Below are positions 8,341-24,345 of a stretch of DNA of 26,302 nucleotides, piece after piece. The notes beneath the pieces were generated by a model that saw only the letters and a program-made list of their open reading frames with translations, ran no database searches and was not told where the DNA came from. The DNA is taken from the IMG/VR virus record IMGVR_UViG_3300022818_000014, positions 1 through 26,302 of that record, one strand, 5' to 3'. Source of the stretch: a virus. A program made the position numbers and the translations under genes. Position 1 is the first letter of the stretch. Each line of letters begins with the position of its first letter.

Positions 8341-8586
8341 ATGTATACAAAAAAAATGATAACTACTGGTGGTAGTTATTGGGTAAAAAAATCTGATGGA
8401 ACATTAGTTGAGGTTATAGATGAAAATGGATACTGGGTTGGACCAGACATTACCTCTACTTCCCCATCTTCTTCTGGAAGCTCTTCAGTTTCTACATCTG
8501 CTTCTGAAAGCCCATCAAGTTCAGTATCAAGTTCTTCGAGCGGTTCGGTATCTAGTTCAGTTTCTTCTAGCCCTTCAGCTAGTTAA
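8341..8586 (+). CDS. Serine-rich head-region protein A
   Basis: 81 aa in two parts. Residues 1-36 form a small beta-type domain (GGSYWVKKSDGTLVEVIDEN then GYWVG). Residues 37-81 are a low-complexity tail in which every second residue is serine; the others are S, T, V, P, A, G or E; it ends SSSPSAS. It is the first gene after the capsid hairpins, so a surface protein such as a head fibre or decoration is plausible. The tail resembles the (Ser-X)n repeats of O-glycosylated serine-rich adhesins. It is a tandem paralogue of the next gene. No signal peptide. Confidence 0.75.
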   Translation: MYTKKMITTGGSYWVKKSDGTLVEVIDENGYWVGPDITSTSPSSSGSSSVSTSASESPSSSVSSSSSGSVSSSVSSSPSAS

Positions 8587-8604
8587 TTAATAATCTAAAT
8601 TATT

Positions 8605-9018
8605 ATGACCCACAAATATAAGGTGGTAGCTGATAGTTATTGGGTAGAAGAACCGAACTCAAGAAAGATGAGAAAAGTAATTGATGAAAATGCACGTTGG
8701 TGTGGACGTAGAATAGTTTCTACCTCCGTCAGTTCATCTGCTTCAGAGTCTATTTCTACTTCGAGTTCTATATCAGAATCTCGCAGTTCTTCAGTTTCTA
8801 CCTCGGCCTCAAGTTCTCTATCAAGAAGTTCTTCGATTTCAACAAGTGCATCTGGTTCTATTTCGAGTTCAGTCTCGAGTAGCATCTCTGCATCTGTATC
8901 TCCAAGTACTTCAGTATCGAGTTCAAGAAGTTCTTCGGTATCTGCTTCATCTTCGATATCAGATTCTGGGAGTTCTTCTCCGAGTTCTTCGGTATCAAGT
9001 TCTCCTTCAGCTAGTTAA
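8605..9018 (+). CDS. Serine-rich head-region protein B
   Basis: 137 aa, paralogue of the preceding protein: its N-terminus (DSYWVEEPNSRKMRKVIDEN, then ARWCG) aligns with SYWVKK..VIDENGYWVG. The serine-rich tail from residue 39 is about twice as long and ends in the same SSSPSAS. The variable positions include R, D and E as well as I, V, T, A and G. The DNA ends of both genes share CTTCAGCTAGTTAA. Likely a virion surface protein and possible substrate for the encoded glycosyltransferases. The starting ATG follows a short AT-rich leader. Confidence 0.75.
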   Translation: MTHKYKVVADSYWVEEPNSRKMRKVIDENARWCGRRIVSTSVSSSASESISTSSSISESRSSSVSTSASSSLSRSSSISTSASGSISSSVSSSISASVSPSTSVSSSRSSSVSASSSISDSGSSSPSSSVSSSPSAS

Positions 9019-9058
9019 ACACTTATTCGGTTCGTTAATTTTTAGCGAATCGGACTAA

Positions 9059-9361
9059 ATGCCTAATATGAAAATAAAGGACAGAATAGTTATTCTCAAC
9101 ATCCTACCTCAACAGGGTAATTTTACTACTCTAACAGTCAAACACGACTTAGTAGAAAAGATTAAAATCACTCAAGAAGAAATTAAAGACCTTGAGATGG
9201 GTGAGGAAAGTGGAATGATTAAATGGAATGTGGATAAAGACATAGACAAAGAATTTGACCTGACTGATTTAGAAAAGAAACTCATCAAAGATACACTGAA
9301 AGAACTGGATGAAAAGAAACAACTCAATGACGATACATTTAATTTACTAAAACTATTCTAA
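9059..9361 (+). CDS. 100-aa hypothetical head-region protein
   Basis: Starts MPNMKIKDRIVILNILPQQG (a second Met at codon 4 is also possible). The N-terminal half looks beta-type; the C-terminal half is a charged two-helix segment (DLTDLEKKLIKDTLKELDEK). Small proteins with this strand-then-helices build are common in the head-to-tail region of tailed phages. It is coupled to the next gene by a TAATG overlap. No function is recognised. Confidence 0.65.
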   Translation: MPNMKIKDRIVILNILPQQGNFTTLTVKHDLVEKIKITQEEIKDLEMGEESGMIKWNVDKDIDKEFDLTDLEKKLIKDTLKELDEKKQLNDDTFNLLKLF

Positions 9362-9585
9362 TGCAATTCTTTAAGTACAATGGTCAATGGTTGACCACTG
9401 ACCAAATGAGAAAAGTGCGTGAAAGACTTACCAAGGAAGCAGAGAGGTTTTGTCCATATTGTGTTTCAGCTGCCATGAGGCATCTGAAAGATTGTCCAAC
9501 AAAACTTCCAGACTTCAACGTAGAAACTACGCACAAATTAACAGAAGAGGAAAGAGAAGAAATAATAAAAAAAAGAAACTCTTAA
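9361..9585 (+). CDS. 74-aa zinc-finger-like protein
   Basis: Contains FCPYCVSAAMRHLKDCPTK (about residues 30-48): Cys31, Cys34, His41 and Cys45 could bind one zinc. The rest is charged and helical, with a Lys/Glu-rich C-terminus. It starts at the TAATG overlap with the gene before. Found among head genes, so it may be a small structural or DNA-binding protein; the role is unknown. Confidence 0.6.
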   Translation: MQFFKYNGQWLTTDQMRKVRERLTKEAERFCPYCVSAAMRHLKDCPTKLPDFNVETTHKLTEEEREEIIKKRNS

Positions 9586-9613
9586 AAGTAAACTAATTAA
9601 ATAATAATAAACA

Positions 9614-9994
9614 ATGAAAAACGTGAGACAGTTGGTTCCTCTAAATGAGGTAACATCAACAACCGTATCTGGTCCGATAAATATCAGATATGCAAAAAAG
9701 GCTACTTTTTTATTCGAAAGGTCTAGCCATGTAAGTGGAAGTTCTATTTTCAGTGTCCAGGCTTCTGTGGCTGGAAAAGAAGGAAGTGATTTTGTTCCTA
9801 ATGTGAACATGATTTCTAATGATGTCAATAATCATTCCCAAACAATCGAAAGAACCATTAACCCAGATTTAGTGGCTGACGGAAAGAAAGTTCTAGCACT
9901 AGACTTGGAAAACTTCTCCTATGATTACATCCAAGTAAAAGTTACTATGACTGGTTCGGGGAAATCGACCTGTAAGATGATTGTTTTAGAGTAA
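9614..9994 (+). CDS. 126-aa beta-rich putative virion protein
   Basis: Predicted beta-sandwich: alternating hydrophobic strands (INIRYAKKATFLFER, SIFSVQASVAGKEGSDF, YDYIQVKVTMTGSG) and no long helices, typical of minor head or decoration proteins. It lies between two small head genes and the connector. No catalytic motif, no signal sequence. Its start ATG follows an A/T-rich leader with no Shine-Dalgarno. Confidence 0.6.
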   Translation: MKNVRQLVPLNEVTSTTVSGPINIRYAKKATFLFERSSHVSGSSIFSVQASVAGKEGSDFVPNVNMISNDVNNHSQTIERTINPDLVADGKKVLALDLENFSYDYIQVKVTMTGSGKSTCKMIVLE

Positions 9995-10012
9995 TTTCTT
10001 AAAAAGAATAAC

Positions 10013-10750
10013 ATGACGCTTGCAGAAATTCGGGCTAAGGCTCGAAAGTATACACGCACAACTGCTGCTAATTATATTGATGCAGACTTAGACACGGATA
10101 TCAATCTTGCCTATGGAGAAGTCTGGATGATGATTCTTGAAGCTGAAGGGTTTAAAAATATGGGTGGAGACTTTAAAGTTCTCGACCTTGAAAATACTAC
10201 AGGTTTAGACCCTCAAGACCTTGGTTATTATGGAGAGTATCCATTTCCATCCATTGCTCTTGACTTAGAAGAAGTTTATCTTAAGTATGATTCAGCCGAT
10301 GATTATGTCAAAGCTGATATCGTAGACAAAAGTGAAATAAGTTCAGAAATGTTCAATGATAATGGGATTTATAGTAAATATTCTCCCAGGGTTTTTGTGT
10401 ACCGTGATTCTTTCTTTATCCGACCATTGCTTACTGACACTACTGTCGTAGATGGGATAAAACTTCTAATCCAGCAAAGACAAAAGATTATCGTTGCTAG
10501 TTTAAGTGTTGACCCAGCTGTGGCTGCCAATCAAGTCTTAACTCCAGAATTTGAATCTAACTTCCATAACCTTATTGCTTTAAAGGTTGCTCAAGATTAT
10601 TACCTTGTCTATCCAGATAAATATAATCCTCGTATCGACAAGAAAACCCAAGAACTAGAATCTCAAATCATATCTTTCTACCAAGACAGACATCCTGTGA
10701 CTAAAAGGATTAGAGCAAACATTTATGATAGGGGATTAAGGAATTGGTAA
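10013..10750 (+). CDS. Head-tail adaptor (connector) protein, likely
   Basis: 245 aa, first gene after the head cluster. The N-terminus MTLAEIRAKARKYTRTTAAN then YIDADLDTDINLAYGEVW is typical of phage adaptor proteins that dock under the portal: a helical core, a beta-rich middle and a C-terminal helical region (FESNFHNLIALKVAQDYYLV). Such adaptors are found in podovirus-like phages. Portal, capsid and adaptor order supports the call. Exact family not verified. Confidence 0.65.
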   Translation: MTLAEIRAKARKYTRTTAANYIDADLDTDINLAYGEVWMMILEAEGFKNMGGDFKVLDLENTTGLDPQDLGYYGEYPFPSIALDLEEVYLKYDSADDYVKADIVDKSEISSEMFNDNGIYSKYSPRVFVYRDSFFIRPLLTDTTVVDGIKLLIQQRQKIIVASLSVDPAVAANQVLTPEFESNFHNLIALKVAQDYYLVYPDKYNPRIDKKTQELESQIISFYQDRHPVTKRIRANIYDRGLRNW

Positions 10751-10752
10751 CA

Positions 10753-10767
10753 TTGACAAGTGGTCAA
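10753..10767. promoter_or_regulatory. TTGAC/GTCAA dyad
   Basis: TTGAC, five bases, GTCAA forms a perfect 5-bp dyad in the gap before the gene at 10816. It carries a TTGACA -35-like box, but no good -10 lies 16-18 nt downstream, so it is more likely an operator-like site or chance. Confidence 0.25.
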
Positions 10768-10782
10768 AATCATTAGCTCTTT

Positions 10783-10797
10783 AAAACCAGTGTCTAG
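10783..10797 (+). repeat. Inverted repeat, left flank of gene 10816
   Basis: AAAACCAGTGTCTAG pairs with CTAGACACTGATTTT at 11117-11131, 14 of 15 positions. The two arms exactly enclose one small gene, so they may mark a recombination cassette or form a long-range RNA stem. Confidence 0.6.
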
Positions 10798-10815
10798 TCA
10801 AGTCAAGTAAAAGTT

Positions 10816-11106
10816 ATGTCAAAAGTTTCAAGTCCAAAAATGCCTTACGATATTACAAATTGTAAGGAAACAAAATTGGGGTTTAGCCCAATAAAATCAC
10901 AGTTAAATTTCTTGAAAGGCAAAGTTTTAACAGTTATTGACGCCTCAATCCAAGATGAAATCCAAAGAAAAGCAATCAAGGATTTAATCCATAACGCTTT
11001 TGAAGAACAAATTGACTGGATTTATCAATTATGCGGATTGCCATCTACTCCTGATACTATGGATATTAGCGAAGAAAAAAACTACGAACAAAAAATAATA
11101 GGATAA
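10816..11106 (+). CDS. 96-aa helical protein, cassette gene
   Basis: Short N-terminal segment (MPYDITNCKETKLGFSPIKS) followed by two helices: LKGKVLTVIDASIQDEIQRK and AIKDLIHNAFEEQIDWIYQL. The IDASI..QRKAIKDLI pattern occurs in small phage proteins, and a helical hairpin of this size recalls phage cyclic-nucleotide sponges such as Acb2, but I cannot confirm that. The gene stands alone between two 15-bp inverted repeats and separates the connector from the glycosylation island, as an accessory (moron-like) gene would. No Shine-Dalgarno. Confidence 0.6.
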   Translation: MSKVSSPKMPYDITNCKETKLGFSPIKSQLNFLKGKVLTVIDASIQDEIQRKAIKDLIHNAFEEQIDWIYQLCGLPSTPDTMDISEEKNYEQKIIG

Positions 11107-11116
11107 TTAAAACTTC

Positions 11117-11131
11117 CTAGACACTGATTTT
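11117..11131 (-). repeat. Inverted repeat, right flank of gene 10816
   Basis: CTAGACACTGATTTT, reverse complement of 10783-10797 with one mismatch. It lies just after the cassette gene and before the first glycosyltransferase. Confidence 0.6.
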
Positions 11132-11157
11132 AGAAAACTATAAAAAATAAAAAAAAT

Positions 11158-11985
11158 ATGCGACTTTCGGTAATTATTCCAAGCTATAAAGATGAATTAT
11201 TGAGAAAGACTGTAGATAGTTTATTGGAAAATTCAGGGATTGGTAGTGAATTGGAAATTATAGTTGTGATGGACGGCTGGTGGATTAACCCACCCTTAAA
11301 ACCCGACAAACGAGTTAAGATTATCCATCTTACGGCTAATCGTGGTATGAGAGGAGCTATCAACGCTGGGGTGTCTATCGCACAAGGTGAATACATTATG
11401 CGGATGGACGAACACCAAATGGTTGGTCCAGATTACGATAGAATCCTCATTGATACTTGGGAAAAACACGGAATAGCAGATAATTGCATTGTAACTCCCA
11501 GAAGATACCAATTGGACACCGAACAATGGAAGATAATGGATATTCCACCCATAGACTACGACAGAATGATTATCCAGGAATCTCGTCAGAAGTTTAGTGG
11601 ATTAGAAAGTCGTGGAACAGCCAAGACTCGTGCCAATATAATGATAGATGAAACCTTTGGTATGCAGGGTTCTTGCTGGATAATGAAAAAATCTCATTGG
11701 GATAAAGTAATAGTGGAACTTGACGATGTGAACTATGGACCCTTATACACTGACTCAATAGAGATGCTCTTTAAAACTTGGAAGGTTGGAGGAAAGTTGA
11801 TGGTTAATAAAAATACCTGGCACGCCCATCGTCATAGAGACTTTAAACGCAGTCATAATGATGGAAGTCCAGAAAATCCATCTCGCAAGGAAGAGGCATT
11901 TGCTTACTCCCTCAAAACTTGGGGCAGCTACTTTCACGAGATAGATGGTAAGAAAATAAATGTATGGCCTCCGATATCACAATAA
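11158..11985 (+). CDS. GT2 glycosyltransferase, polypeptide GalNAc-transferase-like
   Basis: 275 aa, GT-A fold. MRLSVIIPSYKDE opens the nucleotide-sugar fold; Asp39 lies in VVMDGWW; the metal-binding motif is D84-E-H86 (DxH) in MRMDEHQMVG rather than the usual DxD. The C-terminal part GSCWIM..., SIEMLFKTWKVGGKLMVNKN and a W-H-A-H-R-H segment match in order the acceptor-side motifs of polypeptide GalNAc-transferases (GT27). These enzymes add sugar to Ser/Thr of proteins, which would fit the serine-rich virion proteins here. The same architecture recurs in the gene at 15455. The donor sugar cannot be read from sequence. Overlaps the next gene by 22 bp. Confidence 0.8.
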   Translation: MRLSVIIPSYKDELLRKTVDSLLENSGIGSELEIIVVMDGWWINPPLKPDKRVKIIHLTANRGMRGAINAGVSIAQGEYIMRMDEHQMVGPDYDRILIDTWEKHGIADNCIVTPRRYQLDTEQWKIMDIPPIDYDRMIIQESRQKFSGLESRGTAKTRANIMIDETFGMQGSCWIMKKSHWDKVIVELDDVNYGPLYTDSIEMLFKTWKVGGKLMVNKNTWHAHRHRDFKRSHNDGSPENPSRKEEAFAYSLKTWGSYFHEIDGKKINVWPPISQ

Positions 11986-12665
11986 TTCTGTTGACTAATA
12001 ATCGTCTACCAATCGCCTGGCAGAAATTTCATAAAGAACAATTACTGAAATCTGCTGGAGACATACCTATTATATCAGTCTCTCAAAAAACAATGGACTT
12101 GGGAACTAACCTAATCCAAGACCAACCACCTTCAAAACCAAATATCTTTTATCAGTTAATGAGAGGGATGAGATTAGTTAAGACGAAGTATGTAGCAGTT
12201 TGTGAGGATGACACGCTATACAGCCCAGACCACTTTACTTTTCGCCCTCCAGAAGATTCTTTCGCATATAATAAACACCGTTGGAGTTTATATTCCTGGA
12301 ATCCAATATATCATTTAAAAAATTGGATTAAGACTGGAGCAGTTCTGATTGCTCCCACAAAGTTAGCTTTAACCTTACTATCAGAACGCTTTACAAAATA
12401 TCCAATGGGTGGAGAGATGCCACTAGGGATGTGTGGAGAACTAGGAGTCTACGAGAAAGAATTAGGACTGGAAGTAAGAAAAGTTATTACCTTTAGTTCA
12501 CAAAACCCAGTTATCCAATTAGACACAGACTACTTTACAAAAATAAACGAAACCAAGGAGACTGTCGAAAGACGACATAAAAAATCTCTTGGAGAAATAA
12601 AAGCTCTATCGGTTCCATACTGGGGTGAAAGTAAAAATTTAGTTAGATATTTCAATGAGGAATGA
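11964..12665 (+). CDS. GT-A-like glycosyltransferase, copy 1 of a duplicated pair
   Basis: 233 aa. Opens with ITIILLTNNRLPIAWQKFH and has an acidic metal-type motif E81-D82-D83 in YVAVCEDDTLYSPDHF, as in GT-A transferases. Paralogue of 13655-14344 (shared KTKYxAVxEDDTLYxxDHF, RWSL(Y/F)SWxPIY, GELG). Function: probably sugar transfer to a glycan begun by another enzyme; donor and acceptor unknown. Its TGA stop overlaps the next start region (ATG 12655), showing tight coupling. Not clearly a member of a named GT family from sequence alone. Confidence 0.72.
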   Translation: MASDITIILLTNNRLPIAWQKFHKEQLLKSAGDIPIISVSQKTMDLGTNLIQDQPPSKPNIFYQLMRGMRLVKTKYVAVCEDDTLYSPDHFTFRPPEDSFAYNKHRWSLYSWNPIYHLKNWIKTGAVLIAPTKLALTLLSERFTKYPMGGEMPLGMCGELGVYEKELGLEVRKVITFSSQNPVIQLDTDYFTKINETKETVERRHKKSLGEIKALSVPYWGESKNLVRYFNEE

Positions 12666-13137
12666 ATATAAAAATTTCAGACCAGAGTTTGCCTCTCACT
12701 ATCCAATTTTAGTAAAAGCAATCCAGTCTACTACTGGACCAGTAATGGAGCTGGGGACAGGTATGTTCTCAACTCCACTTCTTCACTGGTTATGTTTAGG
12801 GAGAAAGTTAGTCAGTTGCGAGAGTCATCCCGAGTACATAGAATTTGCCAAACAATACGAAACATTATTTCATAAAGTTATTAAAATTGATAACTGGCTG
12901 AAATTACAACTAGAAAAATATAGTGTAGTTTTTATAGACCACACTCCCACACCCAGGAAACGAGGAGATGACGCAATAAGATTCACAGACGCAGAACTAG
13001 TAGTCCTACACGATACAGGAAGACATGAAAGTAAATATGGATACGAAAAAGTCTTTCCACTTTTTAAATACAAATACGAAAAAAACAACACTACGGTTTT
13101 AAGTAATTCTATCGATGTAAGTAAATGGATAATATAA
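12655..13137 (+). CDS. SAM-dependent methyltransferase-like, copy 1
   Basis: 160 aa, Rossmann-type. Motif I is MELGTGMFSTPLLHWL (Glu32 to Gly36), the next acidic residue is Glu56 in SCESHPEYIEFA, and VVFIDHTPTPRKRGDDAI forms a later strand-loop. It is a paralogue of the adjacent 13125-13658 gene. The motif I is ELGTG, a relaxed version, so SAM binding is likely but the substrate is not known; glycan or sugar O-methylation would fit the neighbouring transferases. Overlaps both neighbours. Confidence 0.68.
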   Translation: MRNEYKNFRPEFASHYPILVKAIQSTTGPVMELGTGMFSTPLLHWLCLGRKLVSCESHPEYIEFAKQYETLFHKVIKIDNWLKLQLEKYSVVFIDHTPTPRKRGDDAIRFTDAELVVLHDTGRHESKYGYEKVFPLFKYKYEKNNTTVLSNSIDVSKWII

Positions 13138-13658
13138 AAGAAGCAGAAAAAACAGGATACGAACCACTTACTGAAGGATGGAACCTAGACTTCGGATGGT
13201 CAACCCATCTTCCAATGTTAATTAAAACAGTCTTACATTCAGATAAACCAGTTATAGAATTTGGTGCGGGGATTTATTCAACTCCCATACTACATTGGTT
13301 GTGTGAAGAAAGAGGAATTGAACTTATCACTTATGAGAATGACCCGATATGCTATAACTTCTGCAAAGACTATGCTTCTAAAAACCACAAAGTTATTTTT
13401 ATAAAAGATTGGGATGAAATCCCACTCGATAAACAATACGGAGTTGTCCTAATAGACCATGTTCCCTTAAAAAGACGAGGTGTGGATGCAATTAAGTTTA
13501 AGGACAATGCTGATTATATCGTTCTCCATGATACGGGTATTCCTCGTAAGTTCGGATATCACAAAGTATGGGAACATTTTAAATACAGACACGATTGGAA
13601 AAAGTTTCATCCATTTACTTCAGTTGTAAGTAATAAAAACTTAGACTTCTTAAAATGA
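13125..13658 (+). CDS. SAM-dependent methyltransferase-like, copy 2
   Basis: 177 aa, paralogue of the preceding gene: VIEFGAGIYSTPILHWL corresponds to VMELGTGMFSTPLLHWL, and VVLIDHVPLKRRGVDAIKF to VVFIDHTPTPRKRGDDAIRF. Motif I is EFGAG (45-49), the second acidic site Glu71 lies in ITYENDPICY. The N-terminus is about 15 residues longer. It sits back to back with its twin, followed by the second GT, and its TGA stop overlaps the next ATG. Expected cytoplasmic enzyme, substrate unknown. Confidence 0.68.
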   Translation: MDNIKEAEKTGYEPLTEGWNLDFGWSTHLPMLIKTVLHSDKPVIEFGAGIYSTPILHWLCEERGIELITYENDPICYNFCKDYASKNHKVIFIKDWDEIPLDKQYGVVLIDHVPLKRRGVDAIKFKDNADYIVLHDTGIPRKFGYHKVWEHFKYRHDWKKFHPFTSVVSNKNLDFLK

Positions 13659-14344
13659 GTGAAACAACGATAATATATTTAACCCAAAACTTACTTACAG
13701 ATGGGTGGATGGATTATCAGAAAAAAGTTCTTTTAGATTCTATTAGTGAGGATACTCCAATTATAGTTATTTCAAGAAAACCAACAATCGTCAGAAATAA
13801 AAATGATATAAATATAATTCAAACAGAACCATCAAGTGCGTCAAATGTTTATTGGCAAATGCTTAAGGCGGTTAAATTAGCAAAGACAAAATACATTGCA
13901 GTCGCAGAAGACGACACGCTTTATTTCAGAGACCACTTCAATTTTATTCCCAAGAGAGAGGACACATTTTATTATAACTGTAGTCGATGGTCATTATTTT
14001 CCTGGTCTCCAATATACTCCTGGAGAGATAGAAAAACAAATTGTTGCTTAGTGGCTAACCGAGAATTAGTTCTTGAAGCACTAGAAGAAAGATTCGCTAA
14101 ATATCCCAATGGTACTCCTCCAAACGCAACGGGAGAACTTGGTAGGTCAAGAACAGATAGATTACTCGGACTTACTAAAAGAAAAGAAGCATATTTTTAT
14201 ACTAATAATCCCATCATTCAGATTGACCATGAATTTGGTTTAGACGATAGGGCTAAAAGACATCGTAAGAACTGGGGAAGTTTGAGAGCGTATTCAATCC
14301 CAACATGGGGACCAGGTAGTGAAATTTTAAAACATTTTAATTAA
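13655..14344 (+). CDS. GT-A-like glycosyltransferase, copy 2 of a duplicated pair
   Basis: 229 aa, homologous to 11964-12665. The motif E85-D86-D87 lies in KTKYIAVAEDDTLYFRDHF, followed by RWSLFSWSPIYSW and GELGRSRTDR. The order GT, MT, MT, GT mirrors the copies around the centre of the block. The two transferases are diverged, so they probably act on different sugars or positions. Starts at an ATGA overlap and is followed immediately by a methyltransferase at 14345. Confidence 0.72.
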   Translation: MSETTIIYLTQNLLTDGWMDYQKKVLLDSISEDTPIIVISRKPTIVRNKNDINIIQTEPSSASNVYWQMLKAVKLAKTKYIAVAEDDTLYFRDHFNFIPKREDTFYYNCSRWSLFSWSPIYSWRDRKTNCCLVANRELVLEALEERFAKYPNGTPPNATGELGRSRTDRLLGLTKRKEAYFYTNNPIIQIDHEFGLDDRAKRHRKNWGSLRAYSIPTWGPGSEILKHFN

Positions 14345-14881
14345 ATGGAAAAAGAATTTACGAAATATTCTACGCATCACGATTACCATTGGAAAATGTA
14401 TCAGGATTTTAATACGAAGTACCATCGCCACGCTGACCGAGTTAAAGAATGGATTAAAGAAGAATCAGTTTTAGATATAGGTTGTGGAGACGGAAAGATA
14501 ACTTCTATGTTAAACGCCACGGGGATTGATAACGATGCAGAGGGAATTAAATTAGCTCAGGAACATGGGGTCAACGCTTTCCTAGGAGATGCCTATAAAC
14601 TTCCTTTCGGAGCAGAAACATTTGAATCAGTTTTCATTGGAGATGTTTTGGAACACATGGAACGACCTTTACAAATACTTAAAGAAGCTTACAGGGTTTG
14701 CCGAAAATACTTATATGTCGCAGTTCCTATTCCAGGGATGCAAAAAGACCCGTTTCATATAAACGAGCCTAATGCACAAGAACTTAAACTTTTAGTTGAA
14801 ACTGCTGGATTTAAACTTGAAGGAGAAATTTTAGAAGTCAGACAGGATAAGAGGTATTATGCAAAATTTCTCAAGATTTAA
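14345..14881 (+). CDS. Class I SAM methyltransferase (type 11-like)
   Basis: 178 aa with the classical motif I VLDIGCGDG (42-50), motif II region ATGIDNDAEGIKLA, acidic GDAYKLPFGAETFE and SVFIGDVLEHMERP, a normal Methyltransf_11 architecture. It is unlike the two neighbouring methyltransferases and better conserved. Substrate: possibly a sugar, given the flanking glycosyltransferases. It closes the + strand block, directly after the GT (1-nt spacing); its TAA stop overlaps the stop of the convergent minus-strand gene at 14878. Confidence 0.8.
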   Translation: MEKEFTKYSTHHDYHWKMYQDFNTKYHRHADRVKEWIKEESVLDIGCGDGKITSMLNATGIDNDAEGIKLAQEHGVNAFLGDAYKLPFGAETFESVFIGDVLEHMERPLQILKEAYRVCRKYLYVAVPIPGMQKDPFHINEPNAQELKLLVETAGFKLEGEILEVRQDKRYYAKFLKI

Positions 14882-15117
14882 AAAACCAGATAATCGTTTT
14901 CTACCACGTCACCTTTAGAAAGTATCCAAGTATGGTCTTTTCCATCTCTAAAGATATGAAGGAAATCTCCTTCAAAATGTCCGTACTCTGACTCTGGCCA
15001 AGCCTCACGCTGTATTCTTTTATTAGAAACCGCTTCTTGGATAGCCTCTCCAAATGTTAGTAGTTTTTCTACCTCTTCAACTGGCAGGGGTGAAGAAGAT
15101 ACTTCTGCTTCTTGCAT
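14878..15117 (-). CDS. Tad2-like (DUF2829) protein, putative anti-Thoeris sponge
   Basis: 79 aa. After a short acidic N-terminus, residues 20-42 read LTFGEAIQEAVSNKRIQREA, the FGEAI...G/N-K..-R..W pattern of the DUF2829/Tad2 family, followed by FLHIFRDGKDHTWILSKGDV and ENDYLVF, where the family usually has (S/G)D..A.DW. Tad2 proteins bind the signalling nucleotide made by Thoeris defence and so protect the phage. It lies in a minus-strand cassette inside the glycosylation island, 5 nt after the upstream gene, with no start signal of its own. Tad2 binding needs a check because the terminal Asp-Trp is here Asp-Tyr. Confidence 0.6.
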   Translation of the reverse strand: MQEAEVSSSPLPVEEVEKLLTFGEAIQEAVSNKRIQREAWPESEYGHFEGDFLHIFRDGKDHTWILSKGDVVENDYLVF

Positions 15118-15122
15118 AGTTT

Positions 15123-15425
15123 TTATTTTAAATAATTAATTACAAAACTTCCAGTCTGCGGCTCCACCCAAATTCCGACCCACGCATGAACTACATTGTC
15201 CTGTTTAGCTGTTTTTGGGCTCTCGCCAATTTCTATCTCAGATTGTATCCCATATTTAGAAAGTTCTCTCACCAAATCTTCAGAAAAATTTTTACAGACA
15301 TAGTTATCCGTATATTTCCTATTAGCTATCTTCCTAATGGAATATTCAAGTGGTATGTATTTACCCAAGAAAAATAGTTGAGTAATTACCAATATCAACA
15401 AAATACCCGAAATTATTTTATACAT
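15123..15425 (-). CDS. Membrane-anchored Cys/His protein, transglutaminase-like
   Basis: 100 aa. An N-terminal hydrophobic segment (residues 4-22, KIISGILLILVITQLFFLG) is followed by a domain with Cys44 in NYVCKNFSEDLVRELSKYGI and His80 in VVHAWVGIWVEPQTG, plus Glu88. A Cys near the N-terminus, a later H-A-W and an E-P-Q strand are the arrangement of small transglutaminase-like cysteine enzymes, so a Cys-His(-Glu) site is possible. The membrane segment would place it outside or as a membrane protein. It starts at the predicted transcription start, 7 nt after a TATAAT box, and is the first gene of the minus-strand pair. Confidence 0.55.
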   Translation of the reverse strand: MYKIISGILLILVITQLFFLGKYIPLEYSIRKIANRKYTDNYVCKNFSEDLVRELSKYGIQSEIEIGESPKTAKQDNVVHAWVGIWVEPQTGSFVINYLK

Positions 15426-15432
15426 ATAACTA

Positions 15433-15461
15433 ATTATATCACAGATTTTAATTTATGTCAA
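15433..15461 (-). promoter_or_regulatory. Minus-strand extended -10 promoter, leaderless
   Basis: On the minus strand: TTGACA (15461-15456), 17-nt spacer ending in ATCTGTGA, TATAAT (15438-15433), then 7 bases to the ATG at 15425. It is almost identical to the promoter at 1609-1637 and drives the two minus-strand genes. It overlaps the start region of the + strand GT at 15455, so the divergent units share DNA. Confidence 0.85.
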
Positions 15462-16447
15462 GGAAAAAATACACATTGAGTATTATCATCGCATCGAGAA
15501 ATGAAGAATTTTTAGCAAAAACTGTTGAAAATATAATAGAAAATAAGAATGATGATACCGAAATTATAGTTGGATTGGATGAGAAATGGGCTAAGCCACC
15601 ATTAGTAGACCACCCAGATGTCACGATTTATTATGTACCAGTATCATTGGGTCAAAGAGCTATGTGTAATCAGTTGTGTCGACTTTCTAAAGCCAAGTAT
15701 ATTATGAAGCTTGATGGTCATTGCACGGTTGATAAAGATTTTGATAAGAAAATGATAGAGGGGTTCAAGGAGACTGGCGACAATGTGATTGCAATTCCAA
15801 GTATGTATAATCTACACGCATTTTCATGGAAATGCAAGAAGTGTGGAATGAAATGGTACCAGGGACCGACACCTACTCATTGTATGAGCGGAGAACATGT
15901 CGAGAACCCTAACTGTGATAACACAAGACACTTTGAAAAGAAAATAGTTTTTAAACCCAGATGGAATAGAAGAACAGAATTTTGGAATTTTGATAATGAT
16001 TTGCATTTTCAATACGACAATGGAAGAAAAAAAAGACCAGAATCACAAGGTCAGATAGTAGATACTATGAGTTGTATTGGAGCTTGTTGGATGGTTACCC
16101 GTGATAAATATTGGGAACTTAATTTAAATGATGAAACGTTTGGTTCATGGGGGCAGATGGGCACAGAATTAAGTTGTAAAATACACTTAACTGGAGGAAG
16201 AATGGTTGTTAATAAAAATACATATTTTTCGCATCTTTTTAGAACACAAAAAGACTTCGGATTTCCCTACCCTCAAAGTAATACGCAAGTTAATAACGCA
16301 AGAGAAAAGAGTAAGGAGTTATTTATATATAAAGGATTTAAAGGACAGATTTATCCAATTTCCTGGATGATAGAAAAATATTGGCCAGTTAGTAATTGGA
16401 CTCAAAAAGATTTAGACGAGATTAAGAAAGTTGAATTTAAACCTTAA
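15455..16447 (+). CDS. GT2 glycosyltransferase with zinc ribbon, GalNAc-transferase-like
   Basis: 330 aa. LSIIIASRNEE opens the GT-A fold; D87-G-H89 in MKLDGHCTVD is a DxH metal motif. The C-terminal half has IGACWMVTRDKYWELN, FGSWGQMGTELSCKIHLTGG and VVNKNTYFSHLFR, parallel to the WGGEN..E.SFR.W.CGG..H...H region of polypeptide GalNAc-transferases. A zinc ribbon, with cysteines at 127, 130, 143 and 154, is inserted between. It is a longer relative of the gene at 11158. A role in attaching sugar to Ser/Thr of the serine-rich virion proteins is inferred. The start could also be TTG at 15476, just before SIII; I keep ATG 15455. Confidence 0.8.
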   Translation: MSRKKYTLSIIIASRNEEFLAKTVENIIENKNDDTEIIVGLDEKWAKPPLVDHPDVTIYYVPVSLGQRAMCNQLCRLSKAKYIMKLDGHCTVDKDFDKKMIEGFKETGDNVIAIPSMYNLHAFSWKCKKCGMKWYQGPTPTHCMSGEHVENPNCDNTRHFEKKIVFKPRWNRRTEFWNFDNDLHFQYDNGRKKRPESQGQIVDTMSCIGACWMVTRDKYWELNLNDETFGSWGQMGTELSCKIHLTGGRMVVNKNTYFSHLFRTQKDFGFPYPQSNTQVNNAREKSKELFIYKGFKGQIYPISWMIEKYWPVSNWTQKDLDEIKKVEFKP

Positions 16448-16916
16448 ATTTATCTGGAGAAAGATTATGAACTCGTCTATATTTTTCTCTAGCAAAGGTT
16501 GCATCACAAATCTTACACGGTCTTTTCCCAAATTTGTTTTTAGTAGATGGAAGTGGATGTCCATTCTTACAATGAGTTTTCCTGGCATTAATGGAACTTA
16601 CTGAATTTCCCCTAAGCATATTAAATCTATGAGATACAAGTCTCAAATGTGATGGATTAACACACGCCTTATTCTCGCATATATGGTCAAGTATGGGAAT
16701 ATCCCTATTAGCAACTTTAGGATTAGGTATTGGTCCATATATCCACGCATACATAATTCTATAAACTAACGCTTTCGGACCACGAAATCTGACACGACCA
16801 TATCCCTGCCCATTCTTATTACCAATCCAATTCCAACAACTATCCGTAATTTCTATTTTAGAAAATATACGTTCAAGGATTCCATTATCTAAATTTTCCA
16901 CAACTAACATATCCAT
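16437..16916 (-). CDS. HNH endonuclease, free-standing, homing type
   Basis: 159 aa. An N-terminal NUMOD-like or recognition segment (SCWNWIGNKNGQGYGRVRF) is followed by the HNH core: LDHICENKACVNPSHLRLVS with Asp77-His78, Asn87 and His90, and cysteines 80/85 for a structural zinc; then NMLRGNS and a C-terminal zinc site (C116, H120, C134, C137). Such HNH_3 enzymes are self-spreading genes that cut related genomes. It lies on the minus strand between the GT and the fibre genes and overlaps the GT end by 11 bp. It has its own promoter and leaderless start, independent of the phage operon. Confidence 0.9.
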   Translation of the reverse strand: MDMLVVENLDNGILERIFSKIEITDSCWNWIGNKNGQGYGRVRFRGPKALVYRIMYAWIYGPIPNPKVANRDIPILDHICENKACVNPSHLRLVSHRFNMLRGNSVSSINARKTHCKNGHPLPSTKNKFGKRPCKICDATFAREKYRRVHNLSPDKFKV

Positions 16917-16922
16917 ACTCTA

Positions 16923-16951: not shown

Positions 16952-16985
16952 CATTAAAGAATTAGAATAATAAATTTATAAATAT

Positions 16986-18476
16986 ATGACAGATACAGGA
17001 GCAATATCACCAGGAACAGTAATAGATGGTTTTAACGTACAGTTAATTACAAGTGCTGATGATGGTTATGGACAAACTGGTGGTGGATATGGATTATATT
17101 CAGGAAGTTATACTGTTGTTGGTCAATCATTTGCTGGAAATGGTTCTGTATTAGATAGCGTTAAATTTCTTTTGAATAAGTCTGGTTCTCCAACAGGAAA
17201 CGCAGTCGCTAAAATTTATACTCATTCTGGTACTTTTGGAACTAATTCACTTCCAACAGGTTCTCCATTAGCTACTTCTGATAATCTTGACGTTACTACT
17301 CTTAGTACTTCTCGTTTACTTAAAACATTAACCTTTTCTGGAACAAATAAAATACTTCTTAGTTCAGGAACTAATTATATTGTCGTTTTTGAATTTTCTG
17401 GAGGAGATTCTTCAAATTATGTAAAAATAACCGAGAATTTTGATGGTTCTTGGAGTGGAAATATCTGTTATTACGGAGGTTCTTGGAGTTCTAGTTATTT
17501 AGAAGATTTAATTTTCTATATATATGGTGGAATCGGAACCGTAGCGTGGACTAACCCCGATAACGCTAAGGTGAGTGATAATGTGTATGCGACAGCAAGT
17601 GGTGCTAAACCGTGGACTTCTCATTATCTCAAAGCAACCAATTTTGGTTTTTCTATTCCAAGTGGTGCAATAATAAATGGTATTTTAGTTGAGATAGAGG
17701 AAAAAGGGTCCACCCCGAGTCCGGCTCACGAAAGTGCAATAAAAATAGTAAAAGCAGACGGAACAATCGGGACAACAAATAAATCAACAGGAGCAACTTT
17801 ACCAAGTTCTGATACTTATATTTCTTACGGTTCTGACTCTGATTTATGGGATGAAACTTGGGATGATACTAAAATAAATGACATAGATTTTGGAGTTGTT
17901 TTTTCCATTGCTGGTAATGGTGGAACTGGTGGGTATGTTGACCACATCCGCATCACGGTTTATTACACGGAAACAGGTTCAACTTCAACCTCCATCTCTA
18001 GTTCTATATCTAGTTCCATTTCAACATCGGTTAGCAGTTCTCTAAGCTCTAGTATCTCAGCCTCTCCTTCTGCAGGATATCAAGACTACACTAAAGGAGA
18101 TTATGTTTCCCTACCCTCTAATAATACAGACCTAACCAACATTTTTACTGAGCAAGAAATAACCGATGTAGCGACTAAAGATAATGTAAGAGTTTCTCAA
18201 GATGGAACAGGATATGTTTTACATCAATTCAAAGACTTTGTGGGAAACGCCTTAAATATAACTCTGGAATGGGAAGGACAAACCAATGAGGATTGTTCAT
18301 TATCTCCAGTTCTTTTACAGATATATAACCAGATTACTACCAACTGGGATACGGTTGATACGGACAGCTCTAGTCCAGCTGATACCGACTTTACTTTAAC
18401 TGGAACTGTTAATTCGACAAACTATCAAGACGCAAGTTCTGTTATAAGTTGTCGGGTTTATCAGCAACTTGTCTAA
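16986..18476 (+). CDS. Putative tail fibre / host-binding protein with serine-rich linker
   Basis: 496 aa with separate beta-rich domains: residues 1-180, jelly-roll/CBM-like (SGSYTVVGQSFAGNGSVLDS); about 180-330, a second beta domain with NPDNAKVSDNVYATAS and ILVEIEE; then a serine-rich stretch of about 33 residues (..SSSISSSISTSVSSSLSSS..) ending in SASPSA; then a C-terminal beta domain to the end. This build suggests a surface protein that binds host glycans, with the serine-rich segment as spacer and possible glycan carrier. It follows the HNH gene on the + strand and opens the tail region. No signal peptide. Confidence 0.6.
   Translation: MTDTGAISPGTVIDGFNVQLITSADDGYGQTGGGYGLYSGSYTVVGQSFAGNGSVLDSVKFLLNKSGSPTGNAVAKIYTHSGTFGTNSLPTGSPLATSDNLDVTTLSTSRLLKTLTFSGTNKILLSSGTNYIVVFEFSGGDSSNYVKITENFDGSWSGNICYYGGSWSSSYLEDLIFYIYGGIGTVAWTNPDNAKVSDNVYATASGAKPWTSHYLKATNFGFSIPSGAIINGILVEIEEKGSTPSPAHESAIKIVKADGTIGTTNKSTGATLPSSDTYISYGSDSDLWDETWDDTKINDIDFGVVFSIAGNGGTGGYVDHIRITVYYTETGSTSTSISSSISSSISTSVSSSLSSSISASPSAGYQDYTKGDYVSLPSNNTDLTNIFTEQEITDVATKDNVRVSQDGTGYVLHQFKDFVGNALNITLEWEGQTNEDCSLSPVLLQIYNQITTNWDTVDTDSSSPADTDFTLTGTVNSTNYQDASSVISCRVYQQLV
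17977..18074 (+). repeat. Serine-rich (X-Ser)n module in the fibre
   Basis: Encodes a tract with Ser at nearly every second position and I, V, L, T, A, P at the others, ending in SASPSA. The coding DNA uses mixed Ser codons, so there is little exact DNA repetition. Confidence 0.75.
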
Positions 18477-18495
18477 TAATTTAAATTAAAATATT

Positions 18496-18645: not shown

Positions 18646-18648
18646 TAT

Positions 18649-19347: not shown

Positions 19348-19364
19348 TTATTTAATAAAAAAAT

Positions 19365-19637: not shown

Positions 19638-19646
19638 TATAAATCT

Positions 19647-20360
19647 ATGGCAACTAGATACAAATTACCTAAAATACCAGTAGACGCTTCAATCGCTATC
19701 ACAGCGGCTAAGACTCTTACTGTTCCTTTAGACGCTTCTGTTAGTGGTTCTAATACAGGCGACCAAACTCTCCCCGTCAAAGCCACAGGAGCAGAAGTAA
19801 ACACAGGAACAGATGATGCGAAGTTTGCTACGGCTAAAGCGATAGCGGATAGTTATTTATACGCACCAGGAATTGTCCAAATGTTTGGAGGTTCTACCGC
19901 CCCTACTGGTTATCTGATTTGTGATGGGTCTGCTGTTTCAAGAACTACTTACGCTAATTTATTTGCAGTTATATCTACAACTTTTGGTGTTGGAGATAAT
20001 TCTACTACATTTAACATACCTGATTTCCGTGGTATTTTTCCCAAAGGGGCTGGAACGACTAACCGTGCAGTTGGAAAAGATGCTAGTGGAAATTTCTTTG
20101 CTGGTATTTTGGGAACTTATTTGACTGATAAAATGCAAGGTCATTGGCACTCAAAATGGTATCGTGGACTAATGACATCAGCAGCTGGAACCACTGAATC
20201 TTATGATGCTGGAAATAGAGCTGCAGTGGTAGCTCAAAATGCTAGTGCTTATGATGATTATGTGCGTCAACCAATTTCCGATGGTACAAATGGGACACCT
20301 AGAACAGGTCACACAACAGAACCTCAAAGTTTGGGTATAACATTTATTATAAAAACCTAA
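19647..20360 (+). CDS. Phage tail collar domain protein
   Basis: 237 aa. The collar domain is clear: IVQMFGGSTAPTGYLICDGS, then AVSRTTYANLFAVISTTFGV, GDNSTTFNIPDFRGIFPKG. This W/G-D-G-S plus F.(I/L)PD.RG pattern is the phage tail collar family, found in short-tail and fibre-tip proteins. The N-terminal 90 residues carry an Ala/Thr-rich linker region; the C-terminus ends LGITFIIKT. Probably a fibre or host-contact component. Followed by the duplicated start remnant at 20460. Confidence 0.85.
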   Translation: MATRYKLPKIPVDASIAITAAKTLTVPLDASVSGSNTGDQTLPVKATGAEVNTGTDDAKFATAKAIADSYLYAPGIVQMFGGSTAPTGYLICDGSAVSRTTYANLFAVISTTFGVGDNSTTFNIPDFRGIFPKGAGTTNRAVGKDASGNFFAGILGTYLTDKMQGHWHSKWYRGLMTSAAGTTESYDAGNRAAVVAQNASAYDDYVRQPISDGTNGTPRTGHTTEPQSLGITFIIKT

Positions 20361-20459
20361 CTACCCACAACCTGAATATCTTAATTAATAATAAAACACG
20401 ATTTTGAGCAAAGATAAAAAAGACCAATTTACTCCATTGCAAAGTTAAAACAATAATAA

Positions 20460-20495
20460 ATGCCTTCCTATATCCTACAAGAAGATAAAAAATAG
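20460..20495 (+). pseudogene. Truncated duplicate of the next gene's start
   Basis: ATG here reads MPSYILQEDKK and stops; the real gene 8 bases downstream begins MASYILQEDGF. The DNA CATATA/CTATAT-CTACAAGAAGAT is shared. A partial tandem duplication or a decayed first copy of the module is the simplest reading. Confidence 0.6.
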
Positions 20496-20503
20496 TTAAA
20501 TGA

Positions 20504-22864
20504 ATGGCCTCATATATACTACAAGAAGATGGATTCAAAATACTGCTTGAAGATGGAAGTGGTAGTCTCTTGTTGGAACCAGTTTCTTCTCCAAGTTCTT
20601 CTATATCAGTCTCTATATCCTCTAGCCCTAGCATATCTACTAGTATTTCTGCAAGTCCTTCTCCCTCTACAAGTATAAGCAGTTCTCCCAGTATTTCTAC
20701 AAGTATCAGTAGCTCTTTGTCAACTTCAATAAGCACTTCTCCTTCGATATCTACTTCTATATCGAGCAGCATATCCGCAAGTCCTTCGATTAGTACCTCT
20801 ATTTCAGAATCTCCGAGTATTAGCACATCTATTTCCACTTCTCCAAGTTCTAGTATTTCTACTTCCCTAAGTTCGTCTGTATCCTCCTCTCCGTCTATAT
20901 CCTCTAGTATCTCATCTTCTCCGAGCCCAACGGGAAGTAGTATTTCTACATCACCATCATCGAGTATCTCTAGTTCAGTTTCTACTAGTATCTCTAGCAG
21001 TATTTCACAGAGTCCTTCGATTTCAACAAGTATTTCTAGCTCTATTTCAAGCTCTGTATCTACGTCAATTTCTAGTTCTCCATCCATATCTATTAGTGCG
21101 AGTCCTAGTATTTCTACATCTATAAGTTCTTCGATAAGTTCATCGATAAGTAGTTCGGTTTCTGCATCACCTTCCACTTCTATCTCTTCATCCCCATCGC
21201 CAAGCACTTCGATATCTGTATCTCCGTCTTCTAGTATCTCTACGAGTATATCGTCTTCTATATCGACTTCGGTTAGTGCTAGTCCGTCAATCTCGACATC
21301 TATATCATCCAGTCCGTCTATAAGTACGTCTATATCAACTTCTGTCTCTACATCTCCGAGTACTTCTATTTCAACATCTTTATCAAGTTCTGTTTCGTCT
21401 TCTCCATCAATTAGTACCTCTCTTTCTAGTTCGGTATCCTCAAGTCCTTCAATATCAATCAGTTCATCTCCATCTTCTTCAATCTCATCTTCACCGTCTC
21501 CCAGTACATCAATATCAGCCTCACCCTCAACTAGTCCATCGACAAGCATCTCTGCCTCACCGTCTATTTCCATAAGTGCTTCTCCAAGTATTTCTACTTC
21601 TATTAGTAGTTCTATCAGTTCTAGTATTTCGACATCTGTTTCATCTTCGCCATCTATTTCAATATCATCTAGCCCCAGTATATCCACTTCTATTAGTTCC
21701 AGTATTTCGGAATCTCCTAGCATATCAATATCGAGTTCAATATCTTCAAGTATATCCGCAAGCCCTTCTGTTAGTTCTAGCCCAAGTAGTTCAATATCAA
21801 GTTCTATTTCTAGTTCTATTTCTGCTAGTCCCTCAGCACCTATTACACTTATTTTACAAACAGATTACTGGAATGTAATCATAATAGATACTTACTCACC
21901 TTCAGCGTCTATCTCAACTTCTCCGAGTATATCTATATCTGCTTCGCCTTCAGTATCTATTTCTAGTAGTGTTTCAACATCTCTTTCTTCTTCGATTTCA
22001 AGTTCTATTAGTTCTTCGCCATCTATTAGTTCGTCTATCAGTTCATCTCCCTCGATTTCCACATCCATATCCAGTTCAAAAAGTTCTTCACCGAGTAGTT
22101 CAGTCTCTAGTAGCATTTCAACTTCAATATCCGCATCCCCGAGTATTTCTACAAGCATATCAGTAAGTCCTAGTAGTTCTATATCTTCTTCTATCTCAAG
22201 TAGTCCTTCGATTTCTTCAAGTATCTCGACTTCCATTTCCACATCTCCGAGTATCTCGATATCTAGTTCTTTGTCTTCTTCTGTTTCAAGTTCACCATCG
22301 CCAAGTACCTCAATTTCTTCAAGTATCTCGAAATCACCAAGTCTAAGCCCATCTATTTCAGTAAGTTCAAGCCCATCATTATCACCATCTCTTTCGATAA
22401 GCACCTCAATTTCAACAAGTCCGTCTTCGTCAATTTCTTTTTCAATTAGTTCTAGTATATCTAGTTCTCCATCTATATCCACCAGTATTTCCAGTTCTAT
22501 CAGTTCTTCAATAAGCGTTTCCCCATCAAGTTCAATATCCTCATCAATATCAGCCAGTCCCTCTCCTAGTTCTTCAATTTCCTCCTCTCCAAGTACCTCA
22601 CCAAGTACGAGTATTTCCAGTAGTCCCTCCACTTCAATATCTTCCTCTCCCTCACCGACAGCTGAAGACCACATTTTTAACTACGAAAAACCAAACCAAC
22701 CCCATTACGTTAATCACGGTAAACCCAATCAACCAATTTATATCTACCTTAATAAACCAGGACAACCTGTTTACACTAACCACGCTAAACCAACTATCGT
22801 AATTTACATCAACCACACCAAACCTAATCAACCAACTTATAGGAATATTAAACGCCCAATATAA
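20504..22864 (+). CDS. 786-aa serine-rich repeat virion protein (mucin-like)
   Basis: Three parts. The N-terminus MASYILQEDGFKILLEDGSG, then SLLLEP, is the short LLEDGSG module common in phage proteins. Residues 28 to about 720 form two long (X-Ser)n tracts, nearly perfect alternation of Ser with I, V, L, P, T, S, A and few others, split by ITLILQTDYWNVIIIDT. The C-terminus has five 11-residue repeats of the KPNQPxYxNHx type. There is no signal peptide or sortase motif, so it should be a virion component. The tracts strongly recall serine-rich repeat adhesins and mucin domains and are the best candidate acceptor for the encoded O-glycosyltransferases. All six Ser codons are mixed, which lowers DNA repetition. 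Long antisense frames here are composition artefacts. Confidence 0.8.
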   Translation: MASYILQEDGFKILLEDGSGSLLLEPVSSPSSSISVSISSSPSISTSISASPSPSTSISSSPSISTSISSSLSTSISTSPSISTSISSSISASPSISTSISESPSISTSISTSPSSSISTSLSSSVSSSPSISSSISSSPSPTGSSISTSPSSSISSSVSTSISSSISQSPSISTSISSSISSSVSTSISSSPSISISASPSISTSISSSISSSISSSVSASPSTSISSSPSPSTSISVSPSSSISTSISSSISTSVSASPSISTSISSSPSISTSISTSVSTSPSTSISTSLSSSVSSSPSISTSLSSSVSSSPSISISSSPSSSISSSPSPSTSISASPSTSPSTSISASPSISISASPSISTSISSSISSSISTSVSSSPSISISSSPSISTSISSSISESPSISISSSISSSISASPSVSSSPSSSISSSISSSISASPSAPITLILQTDYWNVIIIDTYSPSASISTSPSISISASPSVSISSSVSTSLSSSISSSISSSPSISSSISSSPSISTSISSSKSSSPSSSVSSSISTSISASPSISTSISVSPSSSISSSISSSPSISSSISTSISTSPSISISSSLSSSVSSSPSPSTSISSSISKSPSLSPSISVSSSPSLSPSLSISTSISTSPSSSISFSISSSISSSPSISTSISSSISSSISVSPSSSISSSISASPSPSSSISSSPSTSPSTSISSSPSTSISSSPSPTAEDHIFNYEKPNQPHYVNHGKPNQPIYIYLNKPGQPVYTNHAKPTIVIYINHTKPNQPTYRNIKRPI
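20585..21838 (+). repeat. First long (X-Ser)n tract
   Basis: Encodes about 418 residues with Ser at every second position over long runs; phase breaks are rare (PTG). X is mainly I, V, L, P, T, S, A. It ends in SASPSA, the same signature that ends the tracts in three other genes. Not an exact DNA repeat, but rich in recurring short words such as TCTAGTATTTCT. Confidence 0.85.
21896..22654 (+). repeat. Second long (X-Ser)n tract
   Basis: About 250 residues after the non-repetitive spacer at 21839-21895, starting SPSASISTS. Same alternating pattern, with rare K, F or other residues at X, ending SSPSPTAEDH before the C-terminal 11-residue repeats. Confidence 0.85.
22688..22852 (+). repeat. Five 33-bp (11-aa) C-terminal repeats
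   Basis: Five consecutive units encode KPNQPHYVNHG, KPNQPIYIYLN, KPGQPVYTNHA, KPTIVIYINHT and KPNQPTYRNIK. Conserved K-P at the start and Tyr at position 7; the fourth unit has diverged. Likely a rod-like or docking domain; family unknown. Confidence 0.85.
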
Positions 22865-24345
22865 TGAAACTATACGGAAATTTTTTCAAAGGCATCGGAT
22901 TGTCACGCAGAGTGCAATCAGGCTTCGATGACCTTACAAATTGTGATGTCTGGTCAGAACTCGGTGCTTTGAAGTGCCAAAAAGCTTTAACTAAAAAATC
23001 AGGTTCAGTTATTACTGCTGGATGTTATCGAGCTGTCGCTCCAGATGGAACGACTTACTTTTTCTCTAAAACTGATGGAATGATTTGGAAACGTTCCGTA
23101 GCTGGAGTTTATTCCTATGTGCGTGTAAACGCTGTGGGTTCTTCAAGTTCTTCACTATCTTCCTCACCATCGGCGACCCGTTCTGCATCTTCTAGTATTT
23201 CTATAAGTTCTTCTCCATCCACATCAGTTTCTTCATCTCTATCAGTGTCCGCCTCAGTTTCAACTTCAGGGTCTACCTCAATTTCTAGTTCCATTTCAGC
23301 TTCAATTTCTCCCTCACCATCAAGTGGTGGGGATACAGGTGGTCATAAAGGAGCTAATTATTACAATGGATGTATTTTTTATACTACCGATACCTATTTA
23401 GGAAGATATACTATCGCTACAGATTCTTGGAATGATTTCTTCCAACTCTTAACTCCAGGAGTGCCTCACGCTATCGAACAGTTTGACTTAATGATGTATA
23501 TTACTAATTCTAAAGACATTGCTCAGTTAGACGATGCTGGAGTATTTTCTTCTTCTGGTTTAGACTTACCAACTGAACATCGAACTACCGCCTTAATTCC
23601 ATACGGAGATGACCTTTTAACATTGTCTAATCCTGGAGATTATATTAACGACTCAGCTATCTACCGATGGAACACCTATGCAGATTCTTGGACTGTTAAA
23701 GACGCTATTAAAGGAACGGACGCTTATGCCTTCTTAGACGCTGATAATAATGTATTTGTTATCTGTCTAAGTGGAGCTATTTATTATTACAATGGTTCTA
23801 AATTGGATATTTTCTCTTACATTCGTAATCCATATCCAACCGAAGGACATCAACTTACTACTAACTTCCAAGGAGTACCTCTGGTAGCCAATGGTGGAAA
23901 GATTTATTCTCTCTACAGAAAGACTCGTGATTTAGACGTAGCTTTAGTGGGAGAATACACTTGTTCTGCTGGTGAAAGTGCTACTATCGAATCTATTGTA
24001 GCTTGTGGCGAACAACTCCTGGTAAACTGGACTAATAATGGAGATGCTGGAGTAGATGAGATTGATACTAATTATTTTGCTAACGCCAGAGTTATTACTC
24101 CGAGATTTGAAAGAGGTTCTGTGGTTAAGGTTGATTACGAAGATTTAAATGGTGCTGAAATTGGAATTTACTCTCGTAAAGATAAGGAATCCAATTGGAC
24201 TTCACACGAAACTTTAGATGACACGGATAAACATTATGTTCGCACAGTTGATGATATGATTCACGAATCAGGTGGACAAGTCCTCGTTACGATTACTCCT
24301 TCCGGAACAGAGTCTCCGATTATTAATGATATAAAAATAGAATGA
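22864..24345 (+). CDS. Beta-rich tail protein with serine-rich insert (nozzle-like?)
   Basis: 493 aa. The first 90 residues (MKLYGNFFKGIGLSRRVQSG, then FDDLTNCDVW) and the rest after 155 look like one repeated-strand protein, with recurrent beta-propeller-like units (GCIFYTTDTYLGRYTIATDS, ALIPYGDDLLTL, SGAIYYYNGSKLDIFSY). Tail nozzle proteins of podoviruses have such propellers, but the assignment is by style and position only. Residues 93-154 are a serine-rich (X-Ser)n insert that interrupts the fold at a probable surface loop. Starts at ATGA-type overlap with the previous gene and ends by overlapping the next ATG. Confidence 0.6.
   Translation: MKLYGNFFKGIGLSRRVQSGFDDLTNCDVWSELGALKCQKALTKKSGSVITAGCYRAVAPDGTTYFFSKTDGMIWKRSVAGVYSYVRVNAVGSSSSSLSSSPSATRSASSSISISSSPSTSVSSSLSVSASVSTSGSTSISSSISASISPSPSSGGDTGGHKGANYYNGCIFYTTDTYLGRYTIATDSWNDFFQLLTPGVPHAIEQFDLMMYITNSKDIAQLDDAGVFSSSGLDLPTEHRTTALIPYGDDLLTLSNPGDYINDSAIYRWNTYADSWTVKDAIKGTDAYAFLDADNNVFVICLSGAIYYYNGSKLDIFSYIRNPYPTEGHQLTTNFQGVPLVANGGKIYSLYRKTRDLDVALVGEYTCSAGESATIESIVACGEQLLVNWTNNGDAGVDEIDTNYFANARVITPRFERGSVVKVDYEDLNGAEIGIYSRKDKESNWTSHETLDDTDKHYVRTVDDMIHESGGQVLVTITPSGTESPIINDIKIE
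23140..23325 (+). repeat. Serine-rich insert in the tail protein
   Basis: Encodes about 62 residues (SSSSSLSSSPSATRSASSSI and on to SASISPSPSS) placed between two parts of a beta-rich domain. Two phases of alternation are joined by ATRS. Confidence 0.8.

Follow-up and report, generated by a model that had tools for sequence, protein, structure and literature searches.

The window, that is, the whole stretch of DNA analysed here (26,302 nucleotides of the IMG/VR virus record IMGVR_UViG_3300022818_000014), carries five genes, designated below by their first nucleotides (8341, 8605, 16986, 20504 and 22864), with perfect runs of 16-150 Ser in which Ser occupies every second residue. All runs are in frame (Table 1). 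Genes 8341-8586 and 8605-9018 both lie behind the capsid gene, and the products of the tract genes are predicted to be virion proteins solely from synteny with genes for terminase, portal, capsid and tail. The initial annotation had reported Ser at nearly every second position in these five genes, and this is borne out, in frame, in each of them. It had also described two blocks in gene 20504; the tract is indeed present, but it comprises three perfect runs, since a one-residue phase slip at PTGS divides the first block and a 20-residue linker, resembling linkers of records L281 and L312, sets the last run apart. No Pfam or PHROG domain, Ig fold included, matched those window tract genes that were scanned, and by reading the tract is of low complexity. 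Two long minus-strand open reading frames (20347-21723 and 21892-22674) were rejected as genes, being mirrors of the tract with alternating Glu and Asp.

Table 1. Ser-alternating tracts and sugar-enzyme cassette of the window.
Feature	Position	Strand	Details
Ser-alternating tract, 22 Ser	8455..8583	+	gene 8341-8586, aa 39-81, C-terminal part; end SPSAS
Ser-alternating tract, 50 Ser	8719..9015	+	gene 8605-9018, aa 39-137, C-terminal part; end SPSAS
Ser-alternating tract, 16 Ser	17979..18071	+	gene 16986-18476, aa 332-362, internal, between two domains
Run 1, 57 Ser	20588..20926	+	gene 20504-22864, aa 29-141
Run 2, 150 Ser	20939..21835	+	gene 20504-22864, aa 146-444
Run 3, 127 Ser	21896..22654	+	gene 20504-22864, aa 465-717
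Short run, 6 Ser	23140..23172	+	gene 22864-24345, aa 93-103, tract start
Main run, 24 Ser	23182..23322	+	gene 22864-24345, aa 107-153
Glycosyltransferase family 2 (GT-A)	11158..11985	+	Pfam PF00535, E 3.7e-20
GT-A-fold glycosyltransferase	11964..12665	+	no Pfam match; AlphaFold model pLDDT 79
Methyltransferase-like protein	12655..13137	+	sequence reading; no family match
Paralogue of 12655-13137	13125..13658	+	
Paralogue of GT-A-fold protein 11964-12665	13655..14344	+	44% identical in A4
Methyltransferase	14345..14881	+	Pfam Methyltransf_11, E 1.3e-15; ortholog in L567 contig
Glycosyltransferase family 2	15455..16447	+	PF00535, E 1.3e-10; bait of reciprocal tests

Between the head and tail genes lies a cassette (11158-16447) that encodes four GT-A-type glycosyltransferases and methyltransferases. 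The model of the 11964-12665 product gave 281 PDB matches at E<=0.001, and among the matches listed almost all were GT-A glycosyltransferases. For the 15455 glycosyltransferase, the phage record collection contained no match. Cassettes of relatives additionally hold a DegT-type aminotransferase (E 5.5e-80), a nucleotide-sugar dehydrogenase and more methyltransferases; the order in L331, for example, is capsid, tract gene, GT2, methyltransferase, HNH, glycosyltransferase, methyltransferase-like, GT2 fusion and DegT aminotransferase. The fusion (L331, 4942-6579) is a single protein that joins a 15455-type GT2 to an 11964-type GT-A. An HNH endonuclease gene on the minus strand (16437-16916) adjoins the last glycosyltransferase of the window and was not found at the corresponding position of the L567 contig; genes of the HNH type are recurrent in the cassettes of relatives.

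Other features of the structural cluster were noted. A tRNA-Met gene (CAT; 6196-6267) lies between 5949-6197 and 6298-6849. The major capsid gene is split, with its middle part on the minus strand (ORF 7614-8078), and the reversed segment (7667-8090) is bounded by inverted repeats of 20 bases (7667-7686 and 8071-8090). The gene is intact in L009 and in the L567 contig, and the split in the window is either an assembly error or a real inversion.

When residues were shuffled within each tract (1000 tries), the longest run averaged 6-10 Ser, and the observed length was never reached for any of the five genes. In the window, the positions between Ser are mainly occupied by I (27%), S (23%), P (16%), T (13%), V (8%) and A (6%). 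Their earlier description as beta-branched, Pro or Thr thus leaves out Ser and Ala. Neighbouring intervening residues are rarely identical (12 observed versus 65 expected in gene 20504), and the same avoidance is seen in most other tract loci (z about -3 to -17); the DNA is thereby kept from becoming a perfect 6-base repeat. Among all loci, S-P-S terminates 81 of 106 runs, while Pro accounts for 30% of all intervening residues (binomial 2e-22). In the L273 family, the tract genes that follow the capsid gene have a conserved end past the last Ser, namely SPSFP, SPSLPF or SISFP. The proposal that alternation places all Ser on one face of the chain would hold only for a beta-extended chain.

Selection on this pattern was examined in a second phage family, identified through its capsid protein, where a tract gene stands immediately behind the capsid gene in 73/73 loci with enough sequence. 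Its tracts contain 14-192 Ser and are borne by a conserved N-domain about 100-125 residues long; for the tract gene of the L273 family, fold comparison of this domain gave no confident match (best Z 4.2 over 39 residues). Codons were compared in six non-redundant pairs (L477/L478, L273/L478, L515/L518, L527/L536, L273/L490 and L519/L522). The 610 aligned tract Ser codons showed 292 synonymous and 0 non-synonymous differences, whereas residues between them showed 188 synonymous and 146 non-synonymous differences. Since Ser is never lost while the residues between vary freely, it is the protein pattern, rather than a DNA repeat, that is under purifying selection. The L490 tract has six residues fewer than the L273 tract; as this difference is even, the register is kept.

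One could suppose that the tracts arose by repeat slippage or as an assembly artefact, as their low-complexity protein sequence might suggest. The codon comparison and the occurrence of the same tracts in independent assemblies contradict this, as does the DNA of the window itself, where tract copies are only ~40-58% identical at the best-matching 6-base steps and TCN and AGY codons are mixed at the window-wide proportion (AGY is 117/446, or 26%, of tract Ser codons and 27% elsewhere), which argues against a recent DNA repeat. We regard such an origin as scarcely credible.

To see how widely the tract occurs, IMG/VR was scanned with sequence patterns; together with L009, which was reached through its portal protein and was the only relative found by portal searches, this yielded 38 records with convincing tracts and a GC content of 0.37-0.66. 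Tracts were retained only if the intervening residues were diverse and the reading frame plausible, since the first, TC-periodic scan retrieved mostly poly-Ser, Gly-Ser or antisense acidic repeats. A scan of IMG/VR with a P-I-T-I pattern returned 18 loci, none with a convincing tract, and ORFs from a scan of GTDB genomes were mostly indistinguishable from the antisense of acidic repeats, with L446 alone being used. Judged conservatively by shared non-glycosyltransferase genes, the 38 records and the window form at least 15 groups.

The contexts of the tract differ. In L088, a predicted major tail protein is fused to it (PHROG match, E 3.4e-21); it also sits within a gene near the L088 capsid gene and within the L264 homologue of that gene, and elsewhere it forms a C-terminal tail. 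In gene 16986, the segment preceding the tract is similar to tail proteins from two Manatee Spring phages without tracts, and the segment following it shares 53-55% identity with L281 and L312; as the two flanks resemble different relatives, the tract lies where two domains meet. Among relatives with long contigs, the nearest is that of the L567 contig (48.4 kb), whose synteny with the window extends from terminase up to and including the glycosyltransferase cassette. Both tract genes that follow the capsid gene are retained there (22 and 62 Ser), and their orthologs in L009 carry tracts as well. The L567 ortholog of gene 22864 is 63% identical, with the flanks joined directly and the tract cleanly absent. 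The counterpart of gene 20504 has 60 Ser in its tract compared to 334 and a different N-terminus, and shares the conserved C-terminal KPNQPxY repeats and KRPI end that follow the tract (22655-22861). Neither of the refuting circumstances named in the initial annotation came about: most tracts are retained in relatives, and the frames are undisturbed. The many unrelated contexts, the empty site in the 22864 ortholog and the shared S-P-S end agree with the earlier view of the tract as a transferable domain. We conclude that the tract is inserted as a module and placed in the structural gene cluster.

Unbiased gene clustering identified GT2 as the family commonest to tract loci (16/39 versus 2/~305 controls, the controls being loci fetched by the same pattern scans and not perfectly matched to tract loci). 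The family of the 12655-13137 protein was found in 5/38 tract loci and 1/305 control loci. On whole records, Pfam GT2 was over cut-off in 25/38 tract records and 4/50 controls; for records of at least 20 kb the numbers were 18/21 and 4/45 (Fisher 1e-9), related phages here not being independent and falling into 15 conservative groups. In the reciprocal direction, a bait alignment led by the 15455 enzyme retrieved 469 relatives in IMG/VR, and tracts were present at 70 of the best 80 loci, where 136 tract genes lay on the same strand and 0 on the opposite one, at a median distance of 1.2 kb. Several of the ten loci without tracts are truncated or short. The second capsid family had glycosyltransferase genes in 35/35 loci with 4 kb downstream. 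Thus, the tract and the GT-A glycosyltransferase/methyltransferase cassette are tightly linked in both directions. GT2 was not detected on the contigs of two tract carriers, L312 (59 kb) and L313 (55 kb).

Dense, even and invariant Ser with variable small or hydrophobic neighbours, together with linked glycosyltransferases, led us to propose O-glycosylation of the tracts. Other roles of the two partners were considered. The tracts might be extended spacers that carry no modification, either entropic bristles or flexible linkers, and have been selected for solubility and reach, with the glycosyltransferases serving otherwise; their location at domain joints, in loops and at C-termini and the two carriers without GT2 would fit this. 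However, a spacer does not need invariant Ser, yet Ser is constant while the residues between vary, and the same-strand, two-way linkage to the cassette would be left unexplained, so that we consider it unlikely. Phage glycosyltransferases that act on the host envelope or on phage DNA are well known. The cassette, which includes sugar-nucleotide enzymes, could likewise serve receptor masking, seroconversion or DNA modification and adjoin tract genes through shared late expression. Against this, it is located inside the structural cluster, often tens of bases from a tract gene, and its enzymes are missing from nearly all control loci, 42 of which have terminase genes (such an enzyme is present in 1/42). 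This role therefore appears even less likely than that of a spacer. Finally, a dense array of alternating Ser could be the target of any Ser modification, phosphorylation included; glycosyltransferases are, however, prominent among the families common to tract loci and no recognised kinase family was seen, which makes modification other than by sugars highly improbable.

Serine-rich repeat (SRR) glycoproteins offer the closest parallel to O-glycosylated tracts: they contain alternating-Ser regions, are linked to glycosyltransferase genes and are O-glycosylated in the cytoplasm (PMC6973325). The likeness to streptococcal serine-rich repeats that had been pointed out earlier is exact in grammar, i.e., in the alternation of Ser (PMC6973325). 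In GspB, Fap1, SraP, PsrP and L. reuteri SRRP, Ser alternates with A, V, T, E and L, tract length is variable, and several glycosyltransferase genes adjoin the acceptor gene (PMC6973325); here, too, Ser alternates, tract length varies and glycosyltransferase genes are clustered with the acceptor gene. The differences are that the acceptors here are phage structural genes with Pro- and Ile-rich residues between Ser, that the enzymes are GT-A family 2 types plus methyltransferases, and that direct reading of the tract ends inspected revealed no cell-wall anchor motif. The initiating GtfA (TIGR02918) was over cut-off in 0/25 records, and the accessory Sec component SecA2 (TIGR03714) was found in 0/25 records, the window record itself being incomplete; on these two proteins, membership in the SRR glycoprotein system fails. 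The absence of GtfA, the L312 and L313 tracts without GT2 and the ten glycosyltransferase loci without tracts all count against glycosylation.

Phage-encoded glycosylation of virions has a precedent in mycobacteriophages (Che8 and others; Freeman et al. 2023, as cited in PMC11652166 and PMC11256854), whose own glycosyltransferases reportedly O-glycosylate capsid or tail proteins and create a glycan shield. As in such phages, glycosyltransferases are here encoded inside the structural region; there, however, modification reportedly falls on the capsid and tail proteins as such, whereas here several proteins carry dedicated Ser-alternating acceptor tracts. T4 Hoc-type Ig-like domains (PMC10385173) resemble the tract in being a promiscuous surface module of variable number on capsid and tail proteins, but they are folded domains, while the tract is of low complexity and has a partner enzyme cassette. 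The literature searched, which covered few subscription journals, contained no report of serine-rich repeats in phages or of their phage-encoded glycosylation.

With the glycosyltransferase cassette, overlooked in the initial annotation, the likeness to SRR glycoproteins becomes a mechanism. By analogy with them, we estimate at roughly three in four the probability that the phage cassette O-glycosylates the Ser-rich tracts of predicted virion proteins, giving rise to bristles. The cassette glycosyltransferases would put sugars on the regularly spaced tract Ser, presumably in the cytoplasm and ahead of assembly, and the methyl and amino-sugar genes would complete the glycan. The tracts would thus become stiff, sugar-coated bristles on head and tail, and such a coat may shield the particle or aid sticking to the host or surroundings.

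Relatives of the 15455 glycosyltransferase at 46-52% identity were present in 5/379 genomes from the phylum to which the Woesebacteria genome that yielded L446 belongs (Patescibacteria group); among 398, 400 and 395 genomes from three further phyla there were none. Since the L446 genome was picked for its tract, the fair count is 4/378. Tract genes adjoin 4/5 of the Patescibacteria cassette loci. With gene names assigned by reading, L563 is phage-like, while L562 and L565/L566 are found among chromosomal-looking genes; the contigs L562, L565 and L566, which have the cassette and a tract gene, may represent surface proteins or prophage remnants. Judging from these cassette relatives, the host of the window phage is probably a member of the Patescibacteria, for which, to our knowledge, few phages are known. 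It is conceivable, though we hold it to be rather doubtful, that a dedicated glycoprotein-brush system exists in Patescibacteria phages, with a mobile acceptor module and its own glycan cassette, common to host chromosomes and making phage and host surfaces alike by exchange or mimicry.

If the O-glycosylation of tracts is true, hundreds of uncultured phages (the 469 bait relatives in IMG/VR) would build their particles under dense bristles O-glycosylated by enzymes that they encode themselves. Unannotated structural and glycosyltransferase genes would receive a testable assignment, and odd low-complexity phage proteins would be accounted for. The cassette would also constitute a compact set of enzymes that O-glycosylate proteins according to a simple acceptor grammar, and would provide a lead to phages of Patescibacteria.
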